Below, in pieces: positions 3,655 through 15,248 of a DNA stretch of 38,035 nt. Source of the DNA: an uncultured Alphaproteobacteria bacterium (GTDB taxonomy: Bacteria; Pseudomonadota; Alphaproteobacteria; Bin95). Both the position numbers and the translations under genes were made by a program. Where the stretch lies: assembly GCA_937891825.1 (NCBI GenBank), contig CALAHN010000121.1, positions 1-38,035 of the forward strand, written 5' to 3'. Below the pieces are notes generated by a model that saw only the letters and a program-made list of their open reading frames with translations, ran no database searches and was not told where the DNA came from. The stretch's first letter is position 1; the number at the start of each line of letters is the position of its first letter.

Positions 3655-3925
3655 CCGGCCCGTCGGCGGACCTGCTTCCAGGACAAAGAAACCTCGGCGG
3701 CGCTGCGCTCACAAGATCGCGACTGCAGCGCGACGCGCTTCGCTGAACGCGGTCAGTTCATAAAAAATTGGTACTAATCCAAATTATTACTTTGTAACAA
3801 TTTCCGGTAACGAGTTAGTCGCTATTTGTGGAAGAATTAATGGAGGATTTTCGTATTATTCGCCTATCGATTTCGATGGTTTGTCCATTGAAATTATTTC
3901 CTTAATCATCGATAGGGGCGGGGTA
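3655..3925. other. AT-rich intergenic region upstream of the RTX peroxidase
   Basis: 271 nt without a credible gene. The first about 100 nt are as GC-rich as the surroundings; from about 3758 to 3900 the sequence turns markedly AT-rich (runs such as AAAAAATT and AATTATTACTTTG), in sharp contrast with the window. This probably holds the promoter of the peroxidase gene. TTGTAA followed 17 nt later by TTAGTC is a weak -35/-10 candidate. A 21-codon ORF starting at the ATG in AATTAATGGAGG (3840) has no support. Confidence 0.5.
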
Positions 3926-4894
3926 ATGACGATTCTTGGGAAACTGCTGGGCGCCAAAGACGATTTCAACCTTTTTGATCTGATCTTCAAGACGGTTGGC
4001 GCGGACGACAAAGGCAAGCCGAAGCCGGACGACCACGATGCGGACCACGGCGGCGATGGCGACGGGCAACATCAGGCTGGCGACAACCTGATCGTCAATG
4101 GCGATTTTGAGAATTACCCTGCCCTGCAGAATGGCGACTGGGGTTACCTGAATTCGGTCAGCGGATGGCACGCGACGAAGGGCGAAGTTGAAATTCAATC
4201 CGGCGACTTCGGCACGGGCAATTCGGCCGGGAACGCCGTCGCCGAGCTGGATTCGTCGCGCAATTCGACGATCCAGCAAGTCGTTACGGTCGAGGAAGCA
4301 GGCGTCTATGAGTTCTCGCTCGACTACGCCATGCGGGATAACGATCCAGGCACAAACGGATTCGCCGTCTATATCAACGGCGTCGAGCATGCGTCGGTTT
4401 ATCCTGACGAGCCGGGTTTCAAGACCCTGGCGTTCGAGGTGGCCCTTGAAGCAGGTCCGGCCGCCATCGCGCTGACGGCGCTTGGAAAATCCGACAGCTA
4501 CGGCACGGTGATCGACAATGTCTCCCTGCGTCTGGCGGACGAGGCCAAGGACGACGACCCCGAATTCGCCGCGACGCATGCGGACGCTATCGTGCATCGC
4601 TATGACGGCCAAGACGACGGCGCGTATCACGCGGCGCGGCTGGAAGACGGCGAGCAGTTCGCAAGCGCGGTTCTGCTGCACGGCGCCGACGGCGCCGTCG
4701 TCCTGACCGACGGCGAGATTTCCCATAACGGCGAGATGGTGGCGAAATTCTCCGACGCGAGCGCCGGCCTGCACTTCATCGGCCGCGCCGAGAACGGCGA
4801 TTTTCTCTATGCGTCCCAGGGGCTGACGCAGAGCGATGAGCCGGCCTTCGAATTGAAGGATTCGGACATCGATTTCCTGTTGAAGCAGTCCTAG
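3926..4894 (+). CDS. N-terminal part of RTX haem peroxidase, ends at in-frame TAG
   Basis: 322 aa up to an amber codon at 4892-4894. The downstream peroxidase frame is the same frame, and the sequence translates without a break on both sides of the TAG, so this is most likely the N-terminal fifth of one 1645-residue protein. Layout: residues 1-30 hydrophobic/amphipathic (MTILGKLLG), 31-54 an Asp/His/Gly-rich linker, about 55-205 a beta-sandwich module of the DUF642/carbohydrate-binding look (LIVNGDFEN, SGWH, AELDSS, TIQQVV, AVYINGV, TVIDNVSL), and about 206-322 an unrecognised domain leading into the peroxidase. I chose ATG 3926, preceded by AGGGGCGGGG; the frame can also be opened at TTG 3881 without a ribosome site. 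TAG could derive from CAG by one transition. No classical signal peptide is seen, as expected for type I secretion. Confidence 0.7.
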   Translation: MTILGKLLGAKDDFNLFDLIFKTVGADDKGKPKPDDHDADHGGDGDGQHQAGDNLIVNGDFENYPALQNGDWGYLNSVSGWHATKGEVEIQSGDFGTGNSAGNAVAELDSSRNSTIQQVVTVEEAGVYEFSLDYAMRDNDPGTNGFAVYINGVEHASVYPDEPGFKTLAFEVALEAGPAAIALTALGKSDSYGTVIDNVSLRLADEAKDDDPEFAATHADAIVHRYDGQDDGAYHAARLEDGEQFASAVLLHGADGAVVLTDGEISHNGEMVAKFSDASAGLHFIGRAENGDFLYASQGLTQSDEPAFELKDSDIDFLLKQS

Positions 4895-4951
4895 CTCGGC
4901 GTCGTCGATCCGAGCCAGCTTGCGGACATCACCGACCCAAGCGGCATTCGG

Positions 4952-7900
4952 TTGCTCGACGGCTTCGGCAACAACGTCAACAACCCGACCTGGGGCAAGG
5001 CCGACGAACCGTTCCTGCGCTGGGGCGGAGTGAACTATGAGGATGGCGTCGGCGAGCCGCGGCAGGGGCCGAACCCCCGCGATATCTCCAATGCCGTGCA
5101 CAATCAGAACACGCAGACCGTGGACGCCACCGGGCCAGGCGTTTCCGCGACCGACAAGGACATTCCGAACAATTTTCTCGGCAACGAGCTGGTTTCGGCA
5201 TTCGGTCAGTATTTCGACCACGGGCTGGATTTCGTGCCGAAAGGGCAGGAGGTCATGCCGGTTGGGAACGATAGCTTCCCGCTGTCGATCAATCGCGGGC
5301 TTGTCAATGAAGGCACGGGCGAGAACGGCGCGCCACGCCAGCACAACAACCTGACGTCGCCATTTGCTGATCAGAACCAGGCATATGGCTCCAATGAAGC
5401 AATCCTTGAGTTCCTGTTGGAACGCAACGATGCCGGCGAACTGACCGCTCGCCTCCTCACCGGGTATACGGCCGACGGCGTGTCGCGTCCGGCCACGCTC
5501 GGCGAGTTGAAGGCGAATTGGCAGAAGGGCGTCGACGCCGGCGTGGTTCCGCAGTTCGAGGACGGTTGGATTTCCGACTTCCGCGGCTCTGGCGATCCGC
5601 TGTTGCTCGACATCAATCCCGGCGTCGCGCTCGACGACCATCTGGTCGCCGGCGATGGACGGATCAACGAGAACATCGGCCTCACGTCGGTGCATACCAT
5701 CTTTGCGAACAATCATAACTTCTGGGTCGATGCGATCGCCAAGAAGCTGGAGGAACTGGCGGACGCGGGAACGCCGCGCAATTACGACCAGGAAGATCTG
5801 TTCAACATGGCGAAGATCGTCAATGAGGGCGAGTATCAACGGATCGTCTTCGACGAATTCGTCGAGCTTCTGGTCGGTTCTGACGTGCATGCGTTCCGGG
5901 ATTACAATCCTCAGATCGACGCCTCTATTTCGCACGAATTCGCTGCGGCGGCGTTCCGGCTTGGCCACTCGATGCTGAACAACTACATCACTGTGCAGAA
6001 CGAAGATGGCTCGACGTCGGAATTCCCCTTGTTCAATGCGTTCCTGAACCCAGGCGCGTTCCAGAACCTGGGCGCGTCCTCCATCATTGGCGGCAGCCTG
6101 ACGAGCTTGCATCAGGAAATCGATCCGTCGATCGTTTCCGATCTTCGCAACAATCTGCTGGGGCAACCGCTCGATCTGGCCTCGTTCAATATCGGCCGCG
6201 GCCGCGACCTCGGCATCGAAACCCTGAATGGGATGCGCGAAGCTGTCGGCCTCTCCAAGTACAGCGACTGGGAGAGCTTCGCCGGCAATATGCGCAACCC
6301 GTCCGACGTCGAGAAGTTCAAGCAGGTCTACGACTCCGTCGACGATGTCGATCTCTGGAGCGGCGGGCTTGCGGAAAAGGCGAGCTCGGCCAACGGTCTT
6401 GGCGTCAACACGGTCCTTGGCGAAACCTTCACCTGGGTTTTCTCGATCCAGATGATCGCCATTCAGGACGGCGACCGGTTCTACTACAAGCATCGGCTGT
6501 TCGAGACCAATCTGCGGCAGGAAATCCAGAATCAGGACTTCGCCGACGTAATCGAACGGACGCTCGATCTCGATCATCTCGGCGCGGAAGTTCTGACCCG
6601 ATATGACGAACGGATCGACCTGCGGGAGAGCCTCGGCGCGGAAACCTTGAAGTTCGAGGGCGACGGCGACCGGGAAATCATCATCGGCCGCAACTTCGGC
6701 GAAACGATCGACGGCGGCGCCGGCGACGATACGATCTTCGGCGAGGCGGGCAGCGATCTGTTGCTCGGCAAGGATGGCGACGACGCACTGCATGGCGGCG
6801 ACGGCGACGATATCCTCATCGGCCACGACGGCGACGACCGGTTCGACGGCGGCAAAGGCAATGACCGTGCGGAAGGCGGCCTTGGCGACGACGACATGGC
6901 CGGCAACGCCGGCGACGATATCCTGAATGCCGGCGAAGGCGACGACGAAGCATTCGGCGGCGACGGCGACGACCGGATCGATGGCGGCTCTGGCTGGGAC
7001 AATCTTTGGGGCGGCTATGGCGACGACATCGTCAAGGGCGGTTCCGGGCGCGATCAGCTCAGCGGCGGCCATGGCAATGACCGGCTCGACGGCGGTTCCG
7101 GCGATGACCGGATCATCGGCAGCGAAGGCGACGACGATCTGACCGGCGGCGAAGGCTACGATGTCTTTCAGTTCCTTCCCGGCTCCGGCTCCGACATCAT
7201 TCGCGATTTCAGCGTGAGCGAAGATCGGATCGACTTGCATCGCTATGTCTGGGAATACGGTTCGGACGCGGTCAACGCCGACAGCTTGCGGGATAGCCTT
7301 GTCGATGCCGCTGAAGGCGCGCGGCTGACCTTGCCGGGCGCGGCTTCGATCCTCTTCGAAGGCGTGTCCGCGGACAGCTTGCGCAGCGCCGGCGACGGCA
7401 TCTTCATTCTTGAGGCTGTCGTCGATCAACGCTCGCACCTGCAGCGGCAGGAACTTGCGCGGGTGATGGAAATCGACGTGCCTTCGATCGTTTCCGTCAG
7501 CGGCAAGGACGGCAGACTGAACGACAATCGCTATGACGAAACGATCGACGAACTGGTGACGACCCATCAGGGCTTTGACGATGGCAGCTTCGATACAGAT
7601 CTCGCGCTCGACAAGAAAAGCGACTTCGGTCAGGCGGTCTATGCTGACGGCAAACCGGACAAAGAAGGTCTGTTCATCCAGGGCGTCGACAGCGACGACC
7701 GGCTGGCGCTCAGGCTGCATAGCCAGGAGAACCCCGGCGTCGATGGTCCCGAAGCCCCGGTTTCGACCTACTTCGCCGTAGCAGCGCGCGGCGACGGCGC
7801 CGACGCGCTTGCGATGCGCCACCTCCTGGCGACGCCCAGAGCCTTTGATGACGGCGCGTCGGACCTCAATCCCAACGGGGTGACGGTTGCAATCGTTCGC

Positions 7901-8863
7901 GACGCATCGGTCTTCACCGGCACGAAGTACGACGACGTCTTCGTCGGCTCCCAGCGGGCGGATGTCTTCTATGCCGGCAAGGGCGACGACGAGGCGGGCG
8001 GCGGCGACGGCGACGACATGCTGGTCGGCGGCGACGGCGACGATCGGCTCGACGGCGGCGCTGGCGACGATGGCGTCTACGGCGGCGACGGCGCGGACGT
8101 GCTGTACGGCGGCGCTGGCGATGACGACATCGCAGGCGACGAAGGCGACGATGCGCTCGATCGCGGCGAGGGCGACGACGGCGTCTTTGGCGGGGCCGGC
8201 GATGACATCCTCAAGGGCGGCGACGGCGACGACCTGATGGCTGGCGACGCTGGCAAGGATGTCATATCCGGCGATGAGGGCGACGATGCGCTGTTCGGCG
8301 GCGATCATGACGATCGGCTGTACGGCGGCGCCGGCGATGACGAACTCGTCGGCGAACGCGGGGACGACCGTCTTGAAGGCGGCGAGGGCAAGGACGCGCT
8401 GTATGGCGGGGCTGACGATGACAGTCTCAACGGCGGCGCTGGCGACGATGTTCTCGCCGGGGAAAGCGGCAAGGATCGTCTTGCAGGCGGCGAAGGCGCG
8501 GACACGCTCTATGGCGACGGCGACAACGACGTGCTTCTGGGCGAAGCCGGCGACGACAGGCTCTATGCCGGCGACGGCAATGACGTGCTCGATGGCGGCG
8601 CCGGCGACGATCTGATGAATGGCGGCGCAGGCAAGGACGTGTTCCAGTTCACGTTTGGCGGCGGCCACGATGTCATCAGCGACTTTGAGCAAGGCATCGA
8701 CATCATTCAACTGTTGGGCTTCGCCGGCGACTTCGACGATCTCTCCATCCACGCGGTCGGCCACGATCTCCGCGTCGATCTTTCCGGCGGGGCGGAATCG
8801 TTGACGCTTTCGGGCTACGCCTATGAGACCCTTGGCGAGAAGGACTTTGCATTCGGATACTAA
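4952..8863 (+). CDS. Animal-type haem peroxidase with two RTX blocks (C-terminal part of the interrupted gene)
   Basis: 1303 codons in the same frame as the preceding ORF. 4952 is only a TTG inside conserved peroxidase sequence (LDGFGNNVNNPTWG) with no ribosome site, so it is not a convincing start; the fragment probably begins right after the TAG. The peroxidase-cyclooxygenase superfamily haem site is complete: distal His in QYFDHGLDF (5219-5221), Arg and Glu of GDGRINEN (Arg 5660-5662), proximal His in FRLGHSM (5966-5968), and the Ca-loop-like SFPLSINRG. Then come RTX block 1 (about 16-18 nonapeptides), a DVFQF beta cap, an unrecognised stretch (about 7430-7910), RTX block 2 (about 25-27 nonapeptides) and a C-terminal cap DVFQFTFGGGHDVISDF with a hydrophobic end, typical of type I secretion signals. 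Predicted to be a secreted, Ca-folded enzyme oxidising halides or organics with H2O2. No HlyB/HlyD genes are nearby. Confidence 0.82.
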   Translation: MLDGFGNNVNNPTWGKADEPFLRWGGVNYEDGVGEPRQGPNPRDISNAVHNQNTQTVDATGPGVSATDKDIPNNFLGNELVSAFGQYFDHGLDFVPKGQEVMPVGNDSFPLSINRGLVNEGTGENGAPRQHNNLTSPFADQNQAYGSNEAILEFLLERNDAGELTARLLTGYTADGVSRPATLGELKANWQKGVDAGVVPQFEDGWISDFRGSGDPLLLDINPGVALDDHLVAGDGRINENIGLTSVHTIFANNHNFWVDAIAKKLEELADAGTPRNYDQEDLFNMAKIVNEGEYQRIVFDEFVELLVGSDVHAFRDYNPQIDASISHEFAAAAFRLGHSMLNNYITVQNEDGSTSEFPLFNAFLNPGAFQNLGASSIIGGSLTSLHQEIDPSIVSDLRNNLLGQPLDLASFNIGRGRDLGIETLNGMREAVGLSKYSDWESFAGNMRNPSDVEKFKQVYDSVDDVDLWSGGLAEKASSANGLGVNTVLGETFTWVFSIQMIAIQDGDRFYYKHRLFETNLRQEIQNQDFADVIERTLDLDHLGAEVLTRYDERIDLRESLGAETLKFEGDGDREIIIGRNFGETIDGGAGDDTIFGEAGSDLLLGKDGDDALHGGDGDDILIGHDGDDRFDGGKGNDRAEGGLGDDDMAGNAGDDILNAGEGDDEAFGGDGDDRIDGGSGWDNLWGGYGDDIVKGGSGRDQLSGGHGNDRLDGGSGDDRIIGSEGDDDLTGGEGYDVFQFLPGSGSDIIRDFSVSEDRIDLHRYVWEYGSDAVNADSLRDSLVDAAEGARLTLPGAASILFEGVSADSLRSAGDGIFILEAVVDQRSHLQRQELARVMEIDVPSIVSVSGKDGRLNDNRYDETIDELVTTHQGFDDGSFDTDLALDKKSDFGQAVYADGKPDKEGLFIQGVDSDDRLALRLHSQENPGVDGPEAPVSTYFAVAARGDGADALAMRHLLATPRAFDDGASDLNPNGVTVAIVRDASVFTGTKYDDVFVGSQRADVFYAGKGDDEAGGGDGDDMLVGGDGDDRLDGGAGDDGVYGGDGADVLYGGAGDDDIAGDEGDDALDRGEGDDGVFGGAGDDILKGGDGDDLMAGDAGKDVISGDEGDDALFGGDHDDRLYGGAGDDELVGERGDDRLEGGEGKDALYGGADDDSLNGGAGDDVLAGESGKDRLAGGEGADTLYGDGDNDVLLGEAGDDRLYAGDGNDVLDGGAGDDLMNGGAGKDVFQFTFGGGHDVISDFEQGIDIIQLLGFAGDFDDLSIHAVGHDLRVDLSGGAESLTLSGYAYETLGEKDFAFGY
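6686..7165 (+). repeat. RTX nonapeptide-coding repeat block 1
   Basis: About 16-18 tandem 27-nt units encoding GGxGxDxUx, e.g. [27 protein letters not shown]. They form a Ca2+-binding beta roll. The block ends at GYDVFQF, the start of a serralysin-like C-terminal cap. Confidence 0.9.
7918..8640 (+). repeat. RTX nonapeptide-coding repeat block 2
   Basis: About 25-27 tandem 27-nt units (GGDGDDMLV, GGAGDDGVY, GDEGDDALF and so on), denser and more regular than block 1, ending at GKDVFQF. A few units deviate (GGDHDDRLY, GGADDDSLN, GDGDNDVLL), losing one consensus Gly each. Confidence 0.9.
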
Positions 8864-8949
8864 GTCAAAGGTCCGCCTTGGATGACGCCGCTGGCGGTCG
8901 GGTGAGCTTCCCGGTCGCCGGCGGTGTCTTCGGGGTGTTGTTCGCGCTA

Positions 8950-8987
8950 CCGACCCTCAGGGCAATCGAGCTTGCCCTGAGGGTCGG
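8950..8987 (+). terminator. Hairpin terminator after the RTX peroxidase
   Basis: A perfect 16-bp stem, CCGACCCTCAGGGCAA (8950-8965) with TTGCCCTGAGGGTCGG (8972-8987), and a 6-nt loop TCGAGC, 87 nt after the peroxidase stop. It is followed by CCGTTTCG, so there is only a short T run. The strength of the stem makes a terminator the best reading. The rest of 8864-9088 shows nothing else. Confidence 0.78.
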
Positions 8988-9088
8988 CCGTTTCGGGGCC
9001 GAAATTCCGGCGCATCGATCGGATCTGCCCCCGTTGAATTGGGCCGCCGCGGCTGGACGCGCGCGCGGCCCTCGGGCAAACTTGAGGC

Positions 9089-9736
9089 ATGATGCAGAGA
9101 CCGCAACCGCTCGCTGACTTCCTCGCCTGTCTTGCGGCGTCGCTGAAGGCGGCGGCCGAGCCTGGCTCCCCGACGGCGCTTGCCGTCGATCGTGCGTTCG
9201 ATCGCCTGGCAACGCCGGGAACGGCGGCGACGCCGCGGCCGGACCGGGCGCCCGCGACCCAATGGCTGGCGCCGGCGTTTGCGGCGGCGAAACGCGGCGC
9301 TGTGGCGCCGGATCGCGGCGCTGCGGCGAACCTCGCCAGCGCATTTGCGGCCATCGCGCCCGGGCTTGCCTGGCAAGCCCGGACCGACCGTCGCTCCTCC
9401 GATCCAAACTTTCCGAACGCCCATGCGAACGCCGTGATCGTCGGCGCGGGCGGGCTGGAGGAGCGGAGCGATGTTCGCATCGGCGCGTCGCTGCTGGCGC
9501 CCCACACCGAATATCCCGATCACAGCCACCCGCCGGAGGAAGTCTATATCGCGCTTTCCAGCGGCATGTGGCGGCAGAACGACGGGCCGTGGCGGGCGCC
9601 GGGGCCGGGCGGGCTGATCTATAATCCGCCGAACATCGTCCATGCCATGCTGTCCGACGCGGCGCCTTTGCTCGCGATCTGGACGCTGCCCATGAGCGCG
9701 CCCTCAACTAGGCCCACGGGGCAGGCGCATGGCTGA
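9089..9736 (+). CDS. DMSP-lyase-family cupin (cupin-DLL)
   Basis: 215 aa. The C-terminal cupin carries the metal-site signature of the DMSP lyase/cupin-DLL family: H..YPDHSHPPEEVY (about residues 146-160), then SGMWRQNDGPW, GGLIYNPPNIVHAM and APLLAIW. In DddL/Q/W-type enzymes these His, Glu and Tyr residues bind Fe/Zn and cleave dimethylsulfoniopropionate to dimethyl sulfide and acrylate. The N-terminal about 130 residues are the helical Ala-rich half seen in this family. ATG 9089 and 9092 are both possible; GAGG at 9084 fits the second better. It overlaps the next gene by 8 nt, so the two are translationally coupled. Family assignment is good, but DMSP as substrate is not shown: no acrylate-handling gene (AcuI, AcuNK) lies beside it, and the neighbours suggest an amide- or lactam-containing substrate instead. 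Confidence 0.75.
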   Translation: MMQRPQPLADFLACLAASLKAAAEPGSPTALAVDRAFDRLATPGTAATPRPDRAPATQWLAPAFAAAKRGAVAPDRGAAANLASAFAAIAPGLAWQARTDRRSSDPNFPNAHANAVIVGAGGLEERSDVRIGASLLAPHTEYPDHSHPPEEVYIALSSGMWRQNDGPWRAPGPGGLIYNPPNIVHAMLSDAAPLLAIWTLPMSAPSTRPTGQAHG

Positions 9737-10625
9737 GGCGGGCGGCGGCCTGCGCGGTCATGGCCGCTATGCCTATGCGCCCCTGCCGGAGCGGCCGGAT
9801 TTTGACTGGCCGGGCGGACGGCGCCTCGCGGTTTATATCGGCCTGAACCTGGAGCATTTCGCCTTCGGGGAGGGGCTTGGCGGCGAACTGGCGCCGGGCG
9901 GGCCGCAGCCGGACGTGCTGAACTACGCCTGGCGCGATTATGGCAACCGGATCGGCGCATGGCGCTTGCTCGACCTCTTTAAGGCGCTCGACCTGCCGGT
10001 CGGCGTCCTGGCGAACACGGCGATGTACGATTACGCGCCGGAACTGATGGCCGCGTTCAGGGCCTATGGCGCGGAGATCATCGGGCACGGCCTGACCAAT
10101 GCCGAACGGCAGGGCGCCATGACCGAGGCGACGGAGCGGGAGCTCATCGAAAGTTGCGCGCAAAGGATCGCCGAGGAGGAAGGGCGCGCCCCCGGCGGTT
10201 GGCTCGGCCCCTGGATTTCCGAAAGCGCGGTCACGCCCGATCTCCTGCAGGAAGCCGGCTACCGCTATCTGCTGGACTGGGCGCACGACGATCAGCCGAC
10301 CTGGTTCCGCACCCGGAATGGCCAGCGCATTCTGTCCGTGCCCTATCCCCAGGAACTCAACGACATACCGGCGATCATGGCGCGGAAGACCGGCGCCGCC
10401 GAGTTCGCCGACATGATTATCGATAATTTCGACGAGATGCTGGCGCAGTCGGAAGCCCAGTCGCTGGTCATGGGCATCGCGCTGCATGGCTATATCGTCG
10501 GCCAGCCCTTCCGCCTGAAACACCTCCGCCGGGCGCTTCGCCATATCGTCGACGCCAGCAGCGACCGGGTCTGGCTGACGACGCCGGGCGCCATCGCCGC
10601 GCATTTCGCGACGCTGAACGAATAG
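9729..10625 (+). CDS. Polysaccharide deacetylase family protein (NodB/PuuE-like)
   Basis: 298 aa, no signal peptide, so cytoplasmic; this argues against cell-wall polysaccharide as substrate and for the PuuE-like branch, which hydrolyses cyclic ureides, formamides or related C-N bonds. Visible: WPGGRRLAVYIGLNLEHF at the first strand (the usual catalytic Asp position is altered to NLE), GVLANTAMYDYAPEL, EIIGHGLTNA (His of the metal site), GWLGPWISES, YLLDWAHDDQP and GIALHGYIVGQP (C-terminal His). The layout matches the COG0726 proteins found in small-molecule catabolic operons. It overlaps the DMSP-lyase-family cupin by 8 nt and lies 9 nt from the racemase-like gene. The substrate is unknown. 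Confidence 0.8.
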   Translation: MAEAGGGLRGHGRYAYAPLPERPDFDWPGGRRLAVYIGLNLEHFAFGEGLGGELAPGGPQPDVLNYAWRDYGNRIGAWRLLDLFKALDLPVGVLANTAMYDYAPELMAAFRAYGAEIIGHGLTNAERQGAMTEATERELIESCAQRIAEEEGRAPGGWLGPWISESAVTPDLLQEAGYRYLLDWAHDDQPTWFRTRNGQRILSVPYPQELNDIPAIMARKTGAAEFADMIIDNFDEMLAQSEAQSLVMGIALHGYIVGQPFRLKHLRRALRHIVDASSDRVWLTTPGAIAAHFATLNE

Positions 10626-10634
10626 GGGGCCGCC

Positions 10635-11384
10635 ATGGTCGACGCGCTGGGTTACCGGATGAAATTCGGCGTGATCGCGCCGTCGACCAACACCATCGTG
10701 CAGCCCGAATTCGGCTGGATGGCGCCCCAGGGCGTCACCAATCATTTCAGCCGCATCCATATCCCCGACGATCCCCTCGGCTCGGACGCGGATTTCGAGG
10801 CATTGATGGTCCGCATCCGGGGCGAGTTGATGCAGGCCATCGACCGGGTGATGACCGCCCGGCCGGGGGCGATGGTCATGGGCATGTCGTCGGAGACATT
10901 CTGGGGCGGGCTCGCTGGCTCGATCGACCTGAAGGCCAAGCTGACGGAGCGCGCCGGCGGCTTGCCCGTCGCCATGGGTTCGGACGCGGCGCAGGCGGCG
11001 CTCGGTTGCTATGGCGCCATCAAGCGGATCGCCGTCGTGACGCCTTATATGCCGGTCGGCGACGGCGAAGTCCGCAAGTTCTTCACGGATTGCGGGTTCG
11101 AGGTGCTGGCGGTCATGGGCCTCAAGTGCAACAGCCCGACGGCGATCGCGCATGTGGACGCGAAGACGCTGCGGGACTGCGTCAACGCGGTCAACGATCC
11201 CCAGGTCGAGGCGATCCTGCAGGTCGGCACCAACCTCGCCTTTGCGAAGATCGCGCCCATGGCGGAATTCTGGTTGGACAAGCCGGTGCTGGCGATCAAC
11301 ACGGCCACATACTGGCACGCGCTCCGCATGAACGGCATCCAGGACCGCATCGCCGGCTTCGGGTCGCTCCTGGCAGACTACTGA
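10635..11384 (+). CDS. Maleate cis-trans isomerase / Asp-Glu racemase superfamily protein, catalytic cysteines absent
   Basis: 249 aa, full length for the arylmalonate decarboxylase/maleate isomerase group. FGVIAPSTNT at residues 11-20 is the conserved carboxylate-binding start of that group. The positions that normally hold the two catalytic cysteines read MGMSSETFWGG (Ser85) and LQVGTNLAF (Gly198), so neither is present; remaining cysteines (125, 153, 165, 182) are not in these motifs. It may therefore be a lyase or isomerase with changed chemistry, or a binding protein. The stop of the deacetylase is 9 nt upstream, and a GGGGG sequence precedes the ATG. Context suggests it handles a short dicarboxylate or amide product of the first two enzymes (inference). 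Confidence 0.8.
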   Translation: MVDALGYRMKFGVIAPSTNTIVQPEFGWMAPQGVTNHFSRIHIPDDPLGSDADFEALMVRIRGELMQAIDRVMTARPGAMVMGMSSETFWGGLAGSIDLKAKLTERAGGLPVAMGSDAAQAALGCYGAIKRIAVVTPYMPVGDGEVRKFFTDCGFEVLAVMGLKCNSPTAIAHVDAKTLRDCVNAVNDPQVEAILQVGTNLAFAKIAPMAEFWLDKPVLAINTATYWHALRMNGIQDRIAGFGSLLADY

Positions 11385-11397
11385 CCGGGGGGAGGAA

Positions 11398-12060
11398 ATG
11401 GCGACGGCGGCTTTGCGGCTCATTGGGCGCTGCTTGCTCATCCTGTCGGCGCTGCTCTTCGCTTACGGCCTCGCGGCGGCGGCGCTGAGCCACGTCAGCA
11501 TCAACCGGGACTTCCGGCCAGCGGCCGAGGGGATCGTCATCGCCGTCATCGACAACGGCGTGCATGTCGACATCGTGACGCCGGTCAGCGCCGACGACCG
11601 CGATTGGCGGTCGATCCTGCCAGAAGGGAGCATCCCCGAGGGCGCCAACTGGATTGGGTTCGGCTGGGGGGCGAAGGCGTTCTATCTGAACACGCCGACC
11701 TGGGCGGATTTCGACCCGTGGTTCGGCATGCAGGCGCTGTTCGGGATCGGGGGCGCGACGGTTCGCACGCATTTCCGCGATGCGCTCTATGAAACGCCGG
11801 CCACGACGGTGATTGTGCTGACGCCCCGGCAATATGCGGCCTTGACGGCTGCCATCGCCGACGCGATGACGCTCGGCGCCGATGGCCGCGCCATGGCGCT
11901 GGCGCATCCCGGCTACGGCCGCGATCTCTTCCTTGAAGCCCATGGCCGCTATAGCCCGATCCTGACCTGCAACGAATGGGCGTCCAGGACGCTGGCGACG
12001 GCTGGCGTCAAAACCGCTTTCTGGTCGCCCTTCCCGAACGGCGTCGCGCCCCGACTGTAA
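11398..12060 (+). CDS. DUF2459 (TIGR02117) family protein
   Basis: 220 aa. One N-terminal membrane segment (residues 8-30, LIGRCLLILSALLFAYGLA) anchors a soluble domain, probably periplasmic. Family motifs: NGVHVDIVTPV, FGWGAKAFYLNTPTWADF and ILTCNEWASRTLATAG with an invariant-looking Cys followed by Asn. The family was noted next to urease-type operons and has no established activity; the conserved Cys, His and Asn suggest a papain-like/NlpC-type fold (inference). GGGGGGAGGAA directly precedes the ATG, and the gap to the upstream gene is only 13 nt. Confidence 0.82.
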   Translation: MATAALRLIGRCLLILSALLFAYGLAAAALSHVSINRDFRPAAEGIVIAVIDNGVHVDIVTPVSADDRDWRSILPEGSIPEGANWIGFGWGAKAFYLNTPTWADFDPWFGMQALFGIGGATVRTHFRDALYETPATTVIVLTPRQYAALTAAIADAMTLGADGRAMALAHPGYGRDLFLEAHGRYSPILTCNEWASRTLATAGVKTAFWSPFPNGVAPRL

Positions 12061-12140
12061 GGCGCGCCGATAGCGACGCCAGCGCTGGCGTCGTCCGGTC
12101 GGCGGCGATAGAGTCCGGCCGAATTGCTGGGGCTCTTGTG

Positions 12141-13334
12141 ATGCCGGACCATCCTATTCTGATCGCGGGCGGCGGCATTGGCGGCTTTGCGGCCGCTTTG
12201 GCGCTCGGCGCCAAGGGCTTCGCGGTCAAGCTGATCGAGCAGGCGCCGAGTTTCAGCGAAGTCGGCGCCGGCATCCAGCTTGGGCCGAACATCATGCGCA
12301 TGTTCGATACGCTCGGCGTGACCGATGCGATCAACGCCGCCGCCGTCTATCCTGACATGCTGGTCATGCGCGATGGCTTGACGGCGGACCCTATCGTCGA
12401 AATCCCGCTGGGCGCCGCCTTTGAGCGGCATTTCGGCCGGCCTTACGGCGTGATCTACCGCCCGGACCTCCACAACACGCTGATCGACGCCGCGAAAGCC
12501 TTGCCCTCGGTCGAGACGGTCGCCGGCCTCAAGGTCCTGCGCTACGTCCAGGACGGCGATCTGGTGCGTCTACACACAGCTGACGGCCAGGAACATCTGG
12601 GTTCGGGGCTGATCGGCGCGGATGGGCTCTGGTCGGCCGTTCGGTGGCAGTTGATCGGCGACGGCGAGCCCAGGGTCGCGGGCCATATCGCCTATCGGGC
12701 GGTGCTGCCGATCGACAAGATCCCCTCTCATATCGCAGAGCGTCGCGTCACCCTCTGGGCCGGGCCGAAGACGCATCTCGTCACATATCCGCTGCGGCGC
12801 GGCGAGATCTTCAACATCGTCGCCGTGTTTCATTCCGACCAGTTCGAGAAGGGCTGGGACGTCTACGGTGATCCGGCGGAGTTGCATGAGCGGTTCGCCA
12901 GGCAGCACGGCGACGTCCGGGCCATGATCGACCGCATCGAAAGCTGGCGGATGTGGGTGCTCTGCGACCGCGACCCGATCTCCAACTGGAGCGACGGGCG
13001 CGTGACCTTACTCGGCGATGCGGCGCATCCGACGCTGCAATACATGGCCCAGGGCGCCAACATGGCGGTCGAGGATGCGGTCTGCCTCGCCAATCTGGTC
13101 GAGGCCAATGGCGACGACATCGCCGCCGCCTTCGCCGAATATCCGAAGCGCCGCGCGCTCCGGACGGCGCGGGTGCAATTGACGTCCCGGTTCTACGGCG
13201 ACGTCTTTCATGCCGAAGGCGCAGCGCGGGACTTGCGCAATGTCCTGCTGCCGCGCAAAACGCCGGAGCAGTCCTATCAGGGCATGGCGTGGCTCTATGG
13301 CGGCGTCGCTGACGACGGCTCGCAGATCATCTGA
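12141..13334 (+). CDS. FAD-dependent monooxygenase, salicylate/3-hydroxybenzoate hydroxylase type
   Basis: 397 aa from ATG 12141, the normal size of a class A flavoprotein aromatic hydroxylase. It uses NAD(P)H, FAD and O2 to hydroxylate a phenolic or hydroxypyridine ring. Motifs: Rossmann GGGIGGFAAALAL at residues 6-18, the DG motif GADGLWSAVR, and the GD motif LLGDAAHPTLQYMAQGANMAVEDA. The frame continues upstream to 11976, but that part overlaps the DUF2459 gene and lacks homology, so the MPDHPILIAGGG start is preferred. It is followed 15 nt later by a cupin. It could be a 3-hydroxybenzoate 6-, salicylate or 6-hydroxynicotinate monooxygenase; sequence alone does not decide. Confidence 0.88.
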   Translation: MPDHPILIAGGGIGGFAAALALGAKGFAVKLIEQAPSFSEVGAGIQLGPNIMRMFDTLGVTDAINAAAVYPDMLVMRDGLTADPIVEIPLGAAFERHFGRPYGVIYRPDLHNTLIDAAKALPSVETVAGLKVLRYVQDGDLVRLHTADGQEHLGSGLIGADGLWSAVRWQLIGDGEPRVAGHIAYRAVLPIDKIPSHIAERRVTLWAGPKTHLVTYPLRRGEIFNIVAVFHSDQFEKGWDVYGDPAELHERFARQHGDVRAMIDRIESWRMWVLCDRDPISNWSDGRVTLLGDAAHPTLQYMAQGANMAVEDAVCLANLVEANGDDIAAAFAEYPKRRALRTARVQLTSRFYGDVFHAEGAARDLRNVLLPRKTPEQSYQGMAWLYGGVADDGSQII

Positions 13335-13349
13335 GGAAAGGGCAAAGCC

Positions 13350-13823
13350 ATGGCGAAATCCCGCGTCGTCCATCCGGACGAAGGCCGCAGCTTCTGGCAG
13401 CCCGTGCCGGCCAACGGCCATGTCGAGGTCAAGGTCGAGGGCGGCAGGGACGGCATGTCGAATTTCGATTGCGGCATGCAGGAAGTCGCGCCCGGATCGT
13501 TCGTCCGCGAACATGCCCATGACCGGAATGAGGAGCTGATCTTCGTCTTTGCGGGCGAAGGGGAGGCGGTCGTCGACGGCGAAACCCATCCGATGCGCCC
13601 GGGCACGACGTTCTATCTGGCGCCCGACAGCCGGCACCTGTTCCGGAATACCGGCGATCAGCCGATGCGGTTCTTCTGGACGCTGCTCCCCGGCGGCCTC
13701 GCGCCGTTCTTCCAGGCGATTGGGCGCGACCGGCAAGCGGGCGACCCGGCGCCGGCACCGTTCCCCCGGCCGGCCGATGTCTCCGCCATCGAACAGAACA
13801 CCGTTTTCAGAAAGCTGGATTGA
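13350..13823 (+). CDS. Cupin domain protein
   Basis: 157 aa single cupin. Motif 1 reads GSFVREHAHDRNEELIFVFAGEG, with two His and a Glu as metal ligands; motif 2 reads PGTTFYLAPDSRHLFRNTG with the last His. The site is complete, so a metal-dependent enzyme or a small-molecule sensor is possible. GAGGAAAGGG lies upstream, 15 nt after the monooxygenase stop, and its own stop directly abuts the next ATG (TGAATG). That tight coupling suggests a role with the monooxygenase, for example on its ring product, but this is inference. Confidence 0.82.
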   Translation: MAKSRVVHPDEGRSFWQPVPANGHVEVKVEGGRDGMSNFDCGMQEVAPGSFVREHAHDRNEELIFVFAGEGEAVVDGETHPMRPGTTFYLAPDSRHLFRNTGDQPMRFFWTLLPGGLAPFFQAIGRDRQAGDPAPAPFPRPADVSAIEQNTVFRKLD

Positions 13824-14423
13824 ATGACCGACCCCTGGCTCGCCCCCGTCACGCTGCAAAGCGCGGCCGTCAAGCTCGTGCTCTCGGATCCGTCCCACGC
13901 CGGCGATCTTGCCGAGGCGTCGAGGGACGGGGCTCTTGACGGGCTTTGGTACACGACCGTCCCGGCGCCGGAGGCCGTGCCGGCTGAAATCGACCGACGG
14001 CTCGGCCTGTTCGCGAAAGGCGCGATGCTGCCCTTCACGGTGGTGGACCCTGCGACGGGCAAGGCCATCGGCATGACGACCTACATGAACGTCGATGCGG
14101 TCAACAAGCGCGTTGAAATCGGCTCGACCTGGTATCGGAAATCCGCCCAGCGGACCGGCGTCAACACCGCCGCGAAGCTGCTGCTCCTGACCCATGCCTT
14201 CGAACGCATGGACTGTATCGCGGTCGAGTTTCGCACCCACTTCATGAACCGCCAGAGCCGCCAGGCGATCGAGCGGTTGGGCGCCAAGCTAGACGGCGTG
14301 CTGCGCGCCCACATGGTGATGGCGAACGGCACATTGCGCGATACCTGCGTATACTCGATCATCCGCGCCGAATGGCCTGCGGTTAAGGCGAACCTCGAAT
14401 GGAAGCTGGCGCAGTCGCGCTGA
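13824..14423 (+). CDS. GNAT family N-acetyltransferase (RimJ/RimL type)
   Basis: 199 aa. The GNAT core is visible: MLPFTVVDPATGKAIGMTTYMNV, EIGSTWYRKSAQRTGVNTAAKLLLLTHAF (acetyl-CoA-binding loop with the Q/R-x-G segment), VEFRTHFMNRQSRQAIERLGAKLDGVLR. It closely fits the COG1670 proteins that acetylate protein N termini or small amines. The start codon directly follows the stop of the cupin gene, so translation is coupled. Substrate unknown. Confidence 0.87.
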   Translation: MTDPWLAPVTLQSAAVKLVLSDPSHAGDLAEASRDGALDGLWYTTVPAPEAVPAEIDRRLGLFAKGAMLPFTVVDPATGKAIGMTTYMNVDAVNKRVEIGSTWYRKSAQRTGVNTAAKLLLLTHAFERMDCIAVEFRTHFMNRQSRQAIERLGAKLDGVLRAHMVMANGTLRDTCVYSIIRAEWPAVKANLEWKLAQSR

Positions 14424-14447
14424 GCTTGAAGGAAGGACGTTTGCGCG

Positions 14448-15248
14448 ATGCGCGTTGACACCACCGACGACAGAATACTGGGCGAAACCGAAGGCGCGAT
14501 CGGCTGGGTCACGATTAACAACCCGGCGCGCCGCAATGCGATGTCGCTGGAGATGTGGGAGGCCATGGCCGACCTGATCGACCGCTTCGCCAAGGATGAC
14601 GCGATCCGCGTCGTCGTCATGAAAGGCGCGGGCGACAAGGCGTTCATGTCCGGCGCGGATATCTCGCAGTTCGAGAAGGTCCGGCATGACGCGAACAGCG
14701 CCGCCCACTACAAGGCGGTCTCCGAAGGCGCCCGCTCGCGGCTGGCGCATCTGGAGAAGCCCTTGATCGCCATGATCCGGGGTTTCTGCCTGGGCGGCGG
14801 CCTTGGCGTCGCGCTGACCGCCGACTTCCGCGTCGCCTCGACGGATTCCCAGTTCGGCATTCCGGCCGCAAAGATGAACATCGTCTATGCCTTCGAAGGC
14901 GTGAAGACGCTGACGGCGCTGGTCGGTCCCGGCATGGCGAAGCAAATCCTGTTCACGGCGAAGCGCTACACGGCCGAGGAGGCCCACAAGATGGGCCTGA
15001 TCGAGGATGTCACGACGCCGGAAGCGCTGGAAGCGACCGTGCGGGCCTACGCGACGACCATCGCCGAAAACGCGCCGATGTCGATCCGCGCGACCAAACT
15101 GACCGTCAGGCAGATATTCACCGATGAGACCGAGCGCGATCTTGAGGCGCTGGTCCGCCTTGGCCAGCAAGCCAGCGACAGCGCCGACTTCGCCGAAGGC
15201 CGCCGCGCCTTCATGGAAAAGCGGAAGCCCGTCTTCAAGGGACGCTGA
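14448..15248 (+). CDS. Enoyl-CoA hydratase/isomerase (crotonase) family protein lacking both canonical Glu
   Basis: 266 aa, complete crotonase fold: ARRNAMSLEM, AFMSGADISQF (CoA/oxyanion site), GFCLGGGLGVALTADFRVA, FGIPAAKMN. In rat enoyl-CoA hydratase the catalytic pair is Glu144 in GGGCELA and Glu164 in PEILLG; here those positions are Gly120 and Ala140, so straightforward hydratase chemistry is unlikely. It may be an isomerase, decarboxylase, thioesterase or racemase using other residues. GAAGGAAGGA lies upstream. It is the last gene of the plus-strand run from 9089, and its final 14 nt overlap the convergent DUF4345 gene. Confidence 0.86.
   Translation: MRVDTTDDRILGETEGAIGWVTINNPARRNAMSLEMWEAMADLIDRFAKDDAIRVVVMKGAGDKAFMSGADISQFEKVRHDANSAAHYKAVSEGARSRLAHLEKPLIAMIRGFCLGGGLGVALTADFRVASTDSQFGIPAAKMNIVYAFEGVKTLTALVGPGMAKQILFTAKRYTAEEAHKMGLIEDVTTPEALEATVRAYATTIAENAPMSIRATKLTVRQIFTDETERDLEALVRLGQQASDSADFAEGRRAFMEKRKPVFKGR

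Follow-up and report, generated by a model that had tools for sequence, protein, structure and literature searches.

The three genes at positions 9089-11384 of the window (the whole stretch of DNA analysed, 38,035 nucleotides) represent an arrangement of known enzyme families seen in a single genome. The chances are about even that they head a catabolic operon peculiar to this lineage and acting on a cyclic amide, an N-heterocycle or a betaine-like substrate. The greatest interest lies not in the trio itself but in the widespread clade of the racemase superfamily, devoid of catalytic cysteines, to which the third gene belongs.

The coupling of the three genes described in the initial annotation is confirmed. 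The ORFs of the cupin and the hydrolase, as positioned directly on the sequence, share ATGGCTGA, an overlap of 8 nt, and 9 nt separate the stop codon of the hydrolase from the start of the racemase homologue. All three ORFs display coding-type GC3, the measure used for gene calling (replaced by ORF length at low-GC loci), and their family matches clear chance expectation by a wide margin. They stand at the front of a run of eight plus-strand genes covering 9089-15248 with gaps of at most 80 nt, and this tight same-strand packing favors a catabolic operon. The features of the run and of the region preceding it are the following.

8883-8927, plus strand: strong hairpin of ~19 bp, possible terminator, following the peroxidase/RTX gene and preceding the cupin
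8950-8987, plus strand: perfect 16-bp inverted repeat with a 6-nt loop, unique in the window (sequence and fold)
9089-9736, plus strand: DLL-family cupin (PF16867), with metal motif YPDHSHPPEEVY at residues 142-153, plus His185
9729-10625, plus strand: PuuE-like hydrolase of polysaccharide-deacetylase fold, cytoplasmic, with Glu42, His120, Asn124, Asp187-Asp188 and His253 invariant among orthologues
10635-11384, plus strand: Cys-less member of the arylmalonate decarboxylase (AMDase)/maleate isomerase superfamily (racemase homologue)
11398-12060, plus strand: DUF2459/TIGR02117 protein, starting 13 nt past the racemase homologue
12141-13334, plus strand: class A flavin monooxygenase of the 3-hydroxybenzoate 6-monooxygenase type (NF006021 and best PDB match)
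13350-13823, plus strand: small single-domain cupin, which accompanies the racemase homologue within the genus
13824-14423, plus strand: GNAT acetyltransferase, second-last gene of the run
14448-15248, plus strand: enoyl-CoA hydratase/isomerase family protein, final gene of the run

Two strong hairpins thus stand between the run and the gene upstream, and the RNA fold of 8864-9092 has a z-score of -5.2, with equal stability in none of the shuffles. The repeat at 8950-8987 may act as a terminator that sets the operon apart from the gene before it. Consensus scans for promoters and terminators returned no matches, and the hairpin at 8883-8927 was missed by the terminator scan because it has no T-run. 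Further upstream, 3881-8863 contains two adjacent ORFs, the first of 337 aa and the second, initiated at TTG, of 1303 aa. They include a haem-peroxidase-like region as well as RTX-type repeats, and may be a peroxidase/RTX gene split in two.

Conservation of gene order was the refuting test named for a conserved and dedicated trio, and that idea fails, the order being absent in all relatives examined. Within the best 80 hydrolase orthologues by closeness from about 85,000 genomes (64-72% identity), none (0/80) has a racemase homologue or a DLL cupin within 10 kb. The three-gene order is likewise absent from the 14 genomes sampled at the order level: the cupin (44-56%) is on one contig there, and hydrolase (49-53%) and racemase homologue are each on another. 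Across 289-385 genomes of the class, among the match positions listed, no confident cupin match is co-located with the hydrolase or the racemase homologue outside the window. Within the genus, the racemase homologue is 81-90% identical and occurs without cupin and hydrolase. Two same-genus genomes (G080 and G298) combine it with an adjoining DUF2459 gene and the small cupin, and another genome (G297) with an adjacent monooxygenase and the small cupin, the upstream genes being unrelated in all three. The absence of the trio in relatives that retain its downstream partners makes the trio specific to the lineage and places the older core downstream.

These data also feed a rather unlikely alternative, in which a rearrangement brought the hydrolase and the cupin beside the racemase core, so that the three are co-transcribed while serving unrelated pathways. 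Such fortuitous vicinity would account for a trio found in no other genome examined, for the low identity (just 49-53%) of the best hydrolase homologues elsewhere in the order, and for the grouping of the cupin (tree support 95/91) with genus cupins that are located on other contigs in relatives, among different neighbours. However, the 8-nt overlap and the 9-nt gap would imply coupled expression, and PuuE-like genes occur beside the Cys-less racemase subfamily more often than chance predicts, as detailed below.

Another, still less probable route is of the gentisate type, in which the monooxygenase would produce gentisate and the racemase homologue would isomerise the ring-cleavage product, with hydrolase and cupin as accessories. 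The monooxygenase reaches 511 bits with NF006021, above the cut-off of 459, and its best PDB match is the 4bjy group of 3-hydroxybenzoate 6-monooxygenase structures; it adjoins the racemase homologue in G297, and a gene of the gentisate dioxygenase family is present in the source genome. Yet the latter lies on contig C85, away from the window, and this gentisate 1,2-dioxygenase homologue seems interrupted by an in-frame TAG (L325 6457-7506). Moreover, in G080 and G298 (loci L052 and L295) the slot that separates DUF2459 from the small cupin is occupied by a DapA-family gene instead of the monooxygenase. Taken together, this route is very unlikely.

The hydrolase was correctly described by the initial annotation as a PuuE-like protein of deacetylase fold without signal peptide. 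PuuE 3cl6 is its best PDB match by sequence (E 1e-26) and again the top fold match (TM 0.76) of a predicted model with pLDDT 83, the modelled fold appearing closest to PuuE and HpPgdA; its N-terminus, read directly, has no hydrophobic signal segment. Identity to PuuE-group structures is only 27-30%, and the protein belongs to a separate, supported clade apart from PuuE. In the alignment with HpPgdA, Asn124 replaces the second His in H-x3-H and Glu42 apparently stands at the Asp position, both residues being invariant in orthologues. PuuE works without metal on a small cyclic substrate (PMC3084791). In nicotinate catabolism, a monooxygenase step is followed by the opening of a heterocycle by HxnM, a cyclic imidase with kinship to HpPgdA (PMC9304392). 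Judged by analogy with these enzymes, the hydrolase falls among the cytoplasmic enzymes of the PuuE/cyclic-imidase type, which act on small C-N substrates, and PuuE and HxnM together suggest that its substrate would be a cyclic amide, imide or ureide.

More specific routes were considered for this enzyme. The allantoin/urate route is ruled out by a TIGR03212 (PuuE) score of 128 bits, far below the cut-off of 424.6, and by the different clade. A hydantoin route has one good example and is the exception rather than the rule: one relative is found in a hydantoin cluster, another beside amidase and hydantoinase A/B genes. Most often, the orthologues are flanked by NTF2-like proteins, M81 peptidases or transporters of various kinds. 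Since these orthologues have varied neighbours and are unlinked to racemase homologues, the role of the hydrolase in the window may differ from the pathway of its partners. It shares 70-72% identity with orthologues from other families and only 51% with a paralogue in its own genome (contig C108). The operon of this paralogue, also present in G080, comprises a DAO-type FAD oxidase, an aldo-keto reductase and the PuuE-like hydrolase, and is conserved in the genus (L143 4652-7840 and L144 4713-8906).

Assignment of the first gene to the DLL cupins is upheld by a PF16867 DMSP_lyase match of 154.5 bits (E 2.6e-45, cut-off 27) and by the metal-ligand motif HxHxxxExY with its distal His (H145, H147, E151, Y153 and H185); as also claimed, none of the usual acrylate genes is adjacent. 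Neither the sequence search nor the tree reveals close kinship with a proven DMSP lyase: the match to DddQ amounts to 30 bits (E 3e-6) and a very long branch separates the two proteins. A DMSP route is therefore weak, the cupin being distant from DddQ. The cupin dioxygenase SbzM, compared by its authors with DMSP-lyase cupins (PMC6331615), is a reminder, by analogy, that cupins of broadly this kind can be oxygenases.

The best annotated relatives of the cupin sit in betaine-transport or demethylation-type loci. In Rhizobium and Sinorhizobium, relatives with 45-47% identity have the same StcD-like NADH:flavin oxidoreductase as a neighbour, accompanied in Rhizobium by glycine/proline betaine ABC transporters, ETF and formaldehyde-detoxification genes, and the Burkholderia relative adjoins a glycine-betaine transporter. 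Such arrangements resemble the loci for stachydrine (proline betaine) demethylation. A plasmid operon of Rhizobium anhuiense (L333 4668-13470) contains two DMSP-lyase-family cupins together with NADH:flavin oxidoreductase, ETF and formaldehyde-detoxification genes. The relatives in these three genera speak for a betaine route. There, a quaternary-ammonium or sulfonium betaine would be the substrate of the cupin, acting as lyase, oxygenase or partner of a demethylase, and its product would pass to the hydrolase and the racemase homologue. This route is nevertheless improbable, since the window has no nearby betaine transporter or demethylase, the source genome has no StcD-like demethylase at E 1e-60, and the cupin clusters with genus cupins instead of rhizobial ones.

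The third gene matches PF17645 (Amdase) with 59 bits. The alignment places M84 and G198 at the positions of the two catalytic cysteines, so that the label 'cysteine-less' is valid for the active site and not for the protein, which contains four Cys elsewhere. AMDase requires C188 and ILLSCGGL (PMC4996985); the homologue has G198 within ILQVGTNL. Similarly, maleate isomerases and Asp/Glu racemases are defined by two cysteines, at which it has M84 and G198. Across the subfamily, the first catalytic position is Met, Ile or Leu, and the motifs MG[MI]SAETFWxG and QxGTNL are retained. Distant paralogues at three loci shared with the Cys-less gene (L054, L055 and L049) keep both cysteines. The subfamily-wide loss, next to paralogues that keep them, therefore indicates a subfamily trait and no decay of the copy in the window. 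An AlphaFold single-sequence model of the protein (pLDDT 36) was set aside. Orthologues (41-90% identity) are common in Alphaproteobacteria and also plasmid-borne; databases label the clade arylmalonate decarboxylase, as seen for the plasmid copies, despite the missing catalytic cysteine.

A second paralogue of the racemase superfamily (29-33% identity) is found close to the Cys-less gene at L054 6307-7023, L055 2474-3190 and L049 6951-7664, with catalytic cysteines in YGCTAGS and SCTD/TCTD. Further such paralogues occur at L032 7758-8468, L048 11050-11766 and L327 10342-11226, the last locus, from Thioclava, having a gene order similar to that of other paralogue-bearing loci, with its Cys-less homologue at 9001-9744. 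On a Leisingera plasmid (L331 883-5703), the Cys-less homologue lies directly 5′ of an NRPS-type adenylation protein and a tautomerase.

PuuE-like genes are recurrent neighbours of the subfamily. Of 23 genera, six have one at a distance of no more than 10 kb from a Cys-less racemase gene, against an expectation of 1.35 (P about 3e-4), and three have one no more than 1 kb away, against 0.26 (P about 1e-3), where expectations follow from the density of PuuE-like genes per genome and include no phylogenetic model. The partners belong to different PuuE subfamilies, which argues that the pairing has recurred. A flavin monooxygenase lies within about 10 kb at 13 of the 40 Cys-less loci, and an isochorismatase-type amidase is near seven of the 40; Thioclava plasmid p2 gathers a monooxygenase, the Cys-less protein, a GntR regulator, a racemase-family paralogue, an MBL hydrolase and an isochorismatase. 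A literature search found no described link between maleate isomerase, deacetylase and allantoinase. The families of the trio had been presented as not normally described together; this is true of the trio order, seen nowhere else, whereas PuuE-like hydrolases and the racemase-like family do meet elsewhere. That enzymes for ring hydroxylation and C-N hydrolysis turn up again and again near the clade suggests a heterocycle pathway. Tentatively, the subfamily could be a cysteine-independent enzyme of the Asp/Glu-racemase superfamily and a recurrent partner of flavin monooxygenases and PuuE-like cyclic-amide hydrolases. Their pathway, a so far undescribed degradation of N-heterocycles, would extend across Alphaproteobacteria, and the window would contain a rewired version of it.

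The lineage-specific catabolic operon, the preferred explanation, would have been assembled in two stages. The older core would consist of the Cys-less racemase homologue, DUF2459 and the small cupin, together with either a monooxygenase or a DapA-like enzyme; the PuuE-like hydrolase and the DLL cupin, located elsewhere in relatives, would have joined it in the source genome. Like PuuE and cyclic imidases, the hydrolase would work in the cytoplasm and open a C-N bond in a small cyclic compound (amide, imide or ureide), using Glu42, His120 and Asn124 instead of the normal Asp-His-His metal site. The acid thus formed would then be converted by the racemase homologue independently of cysteine, for instance by decarboxylation, by hydration or by an isomerisation aided by Ser85, Thr199 and Asn200, and ring hydroxylation by the flavin monooxygenase would precede this step. 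The cupin may be a metal-dependent lyase or oxygenase for a related, perhaps N-methylated, compound. The 'betaine or cyclic amide' of the initial annotation stays a reasonable substrate class because of the type of the hydrolase, the PuuE pairing above chance and the betaine-linked relatives of the cupin, but the three-step lyase-hydrolase-isomerase route remains a proposal. Catabolism of a cyclic amide, heterocycle or betaine is plausible, with the balance close to even.

Compared with known systems, each member of the trio combines family traits with its own deviations. The cupin shares with DddQ, DddK and DddW of the DLL family the PF16867 domain, the YPxHxHPxEExY motif and a later His; unlike them, it has no adjacent acrylate genes, and it is remote from DddQ. 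The hydrolase resembles PuuE, the cyclic imidases (HxnM and the Pseudomonas putida imidase) and the HpPgdA group in fold, length, absence of signal peptide, Glu/His pattern and small-molecule type of active site, but differs from HpPgdA by the replacement of the second metal His by Asn124. The racemase homologue belongs to the superfamily of AMDase and maleate cis-trans isomerase, with conserved Tyr138 and P16 and a similar layout of the C-terminal motif, whereas the LMGTSLSF and ILLSCGGL of AMDase are replaced by VMGMSSETF and ILQVGTNL.
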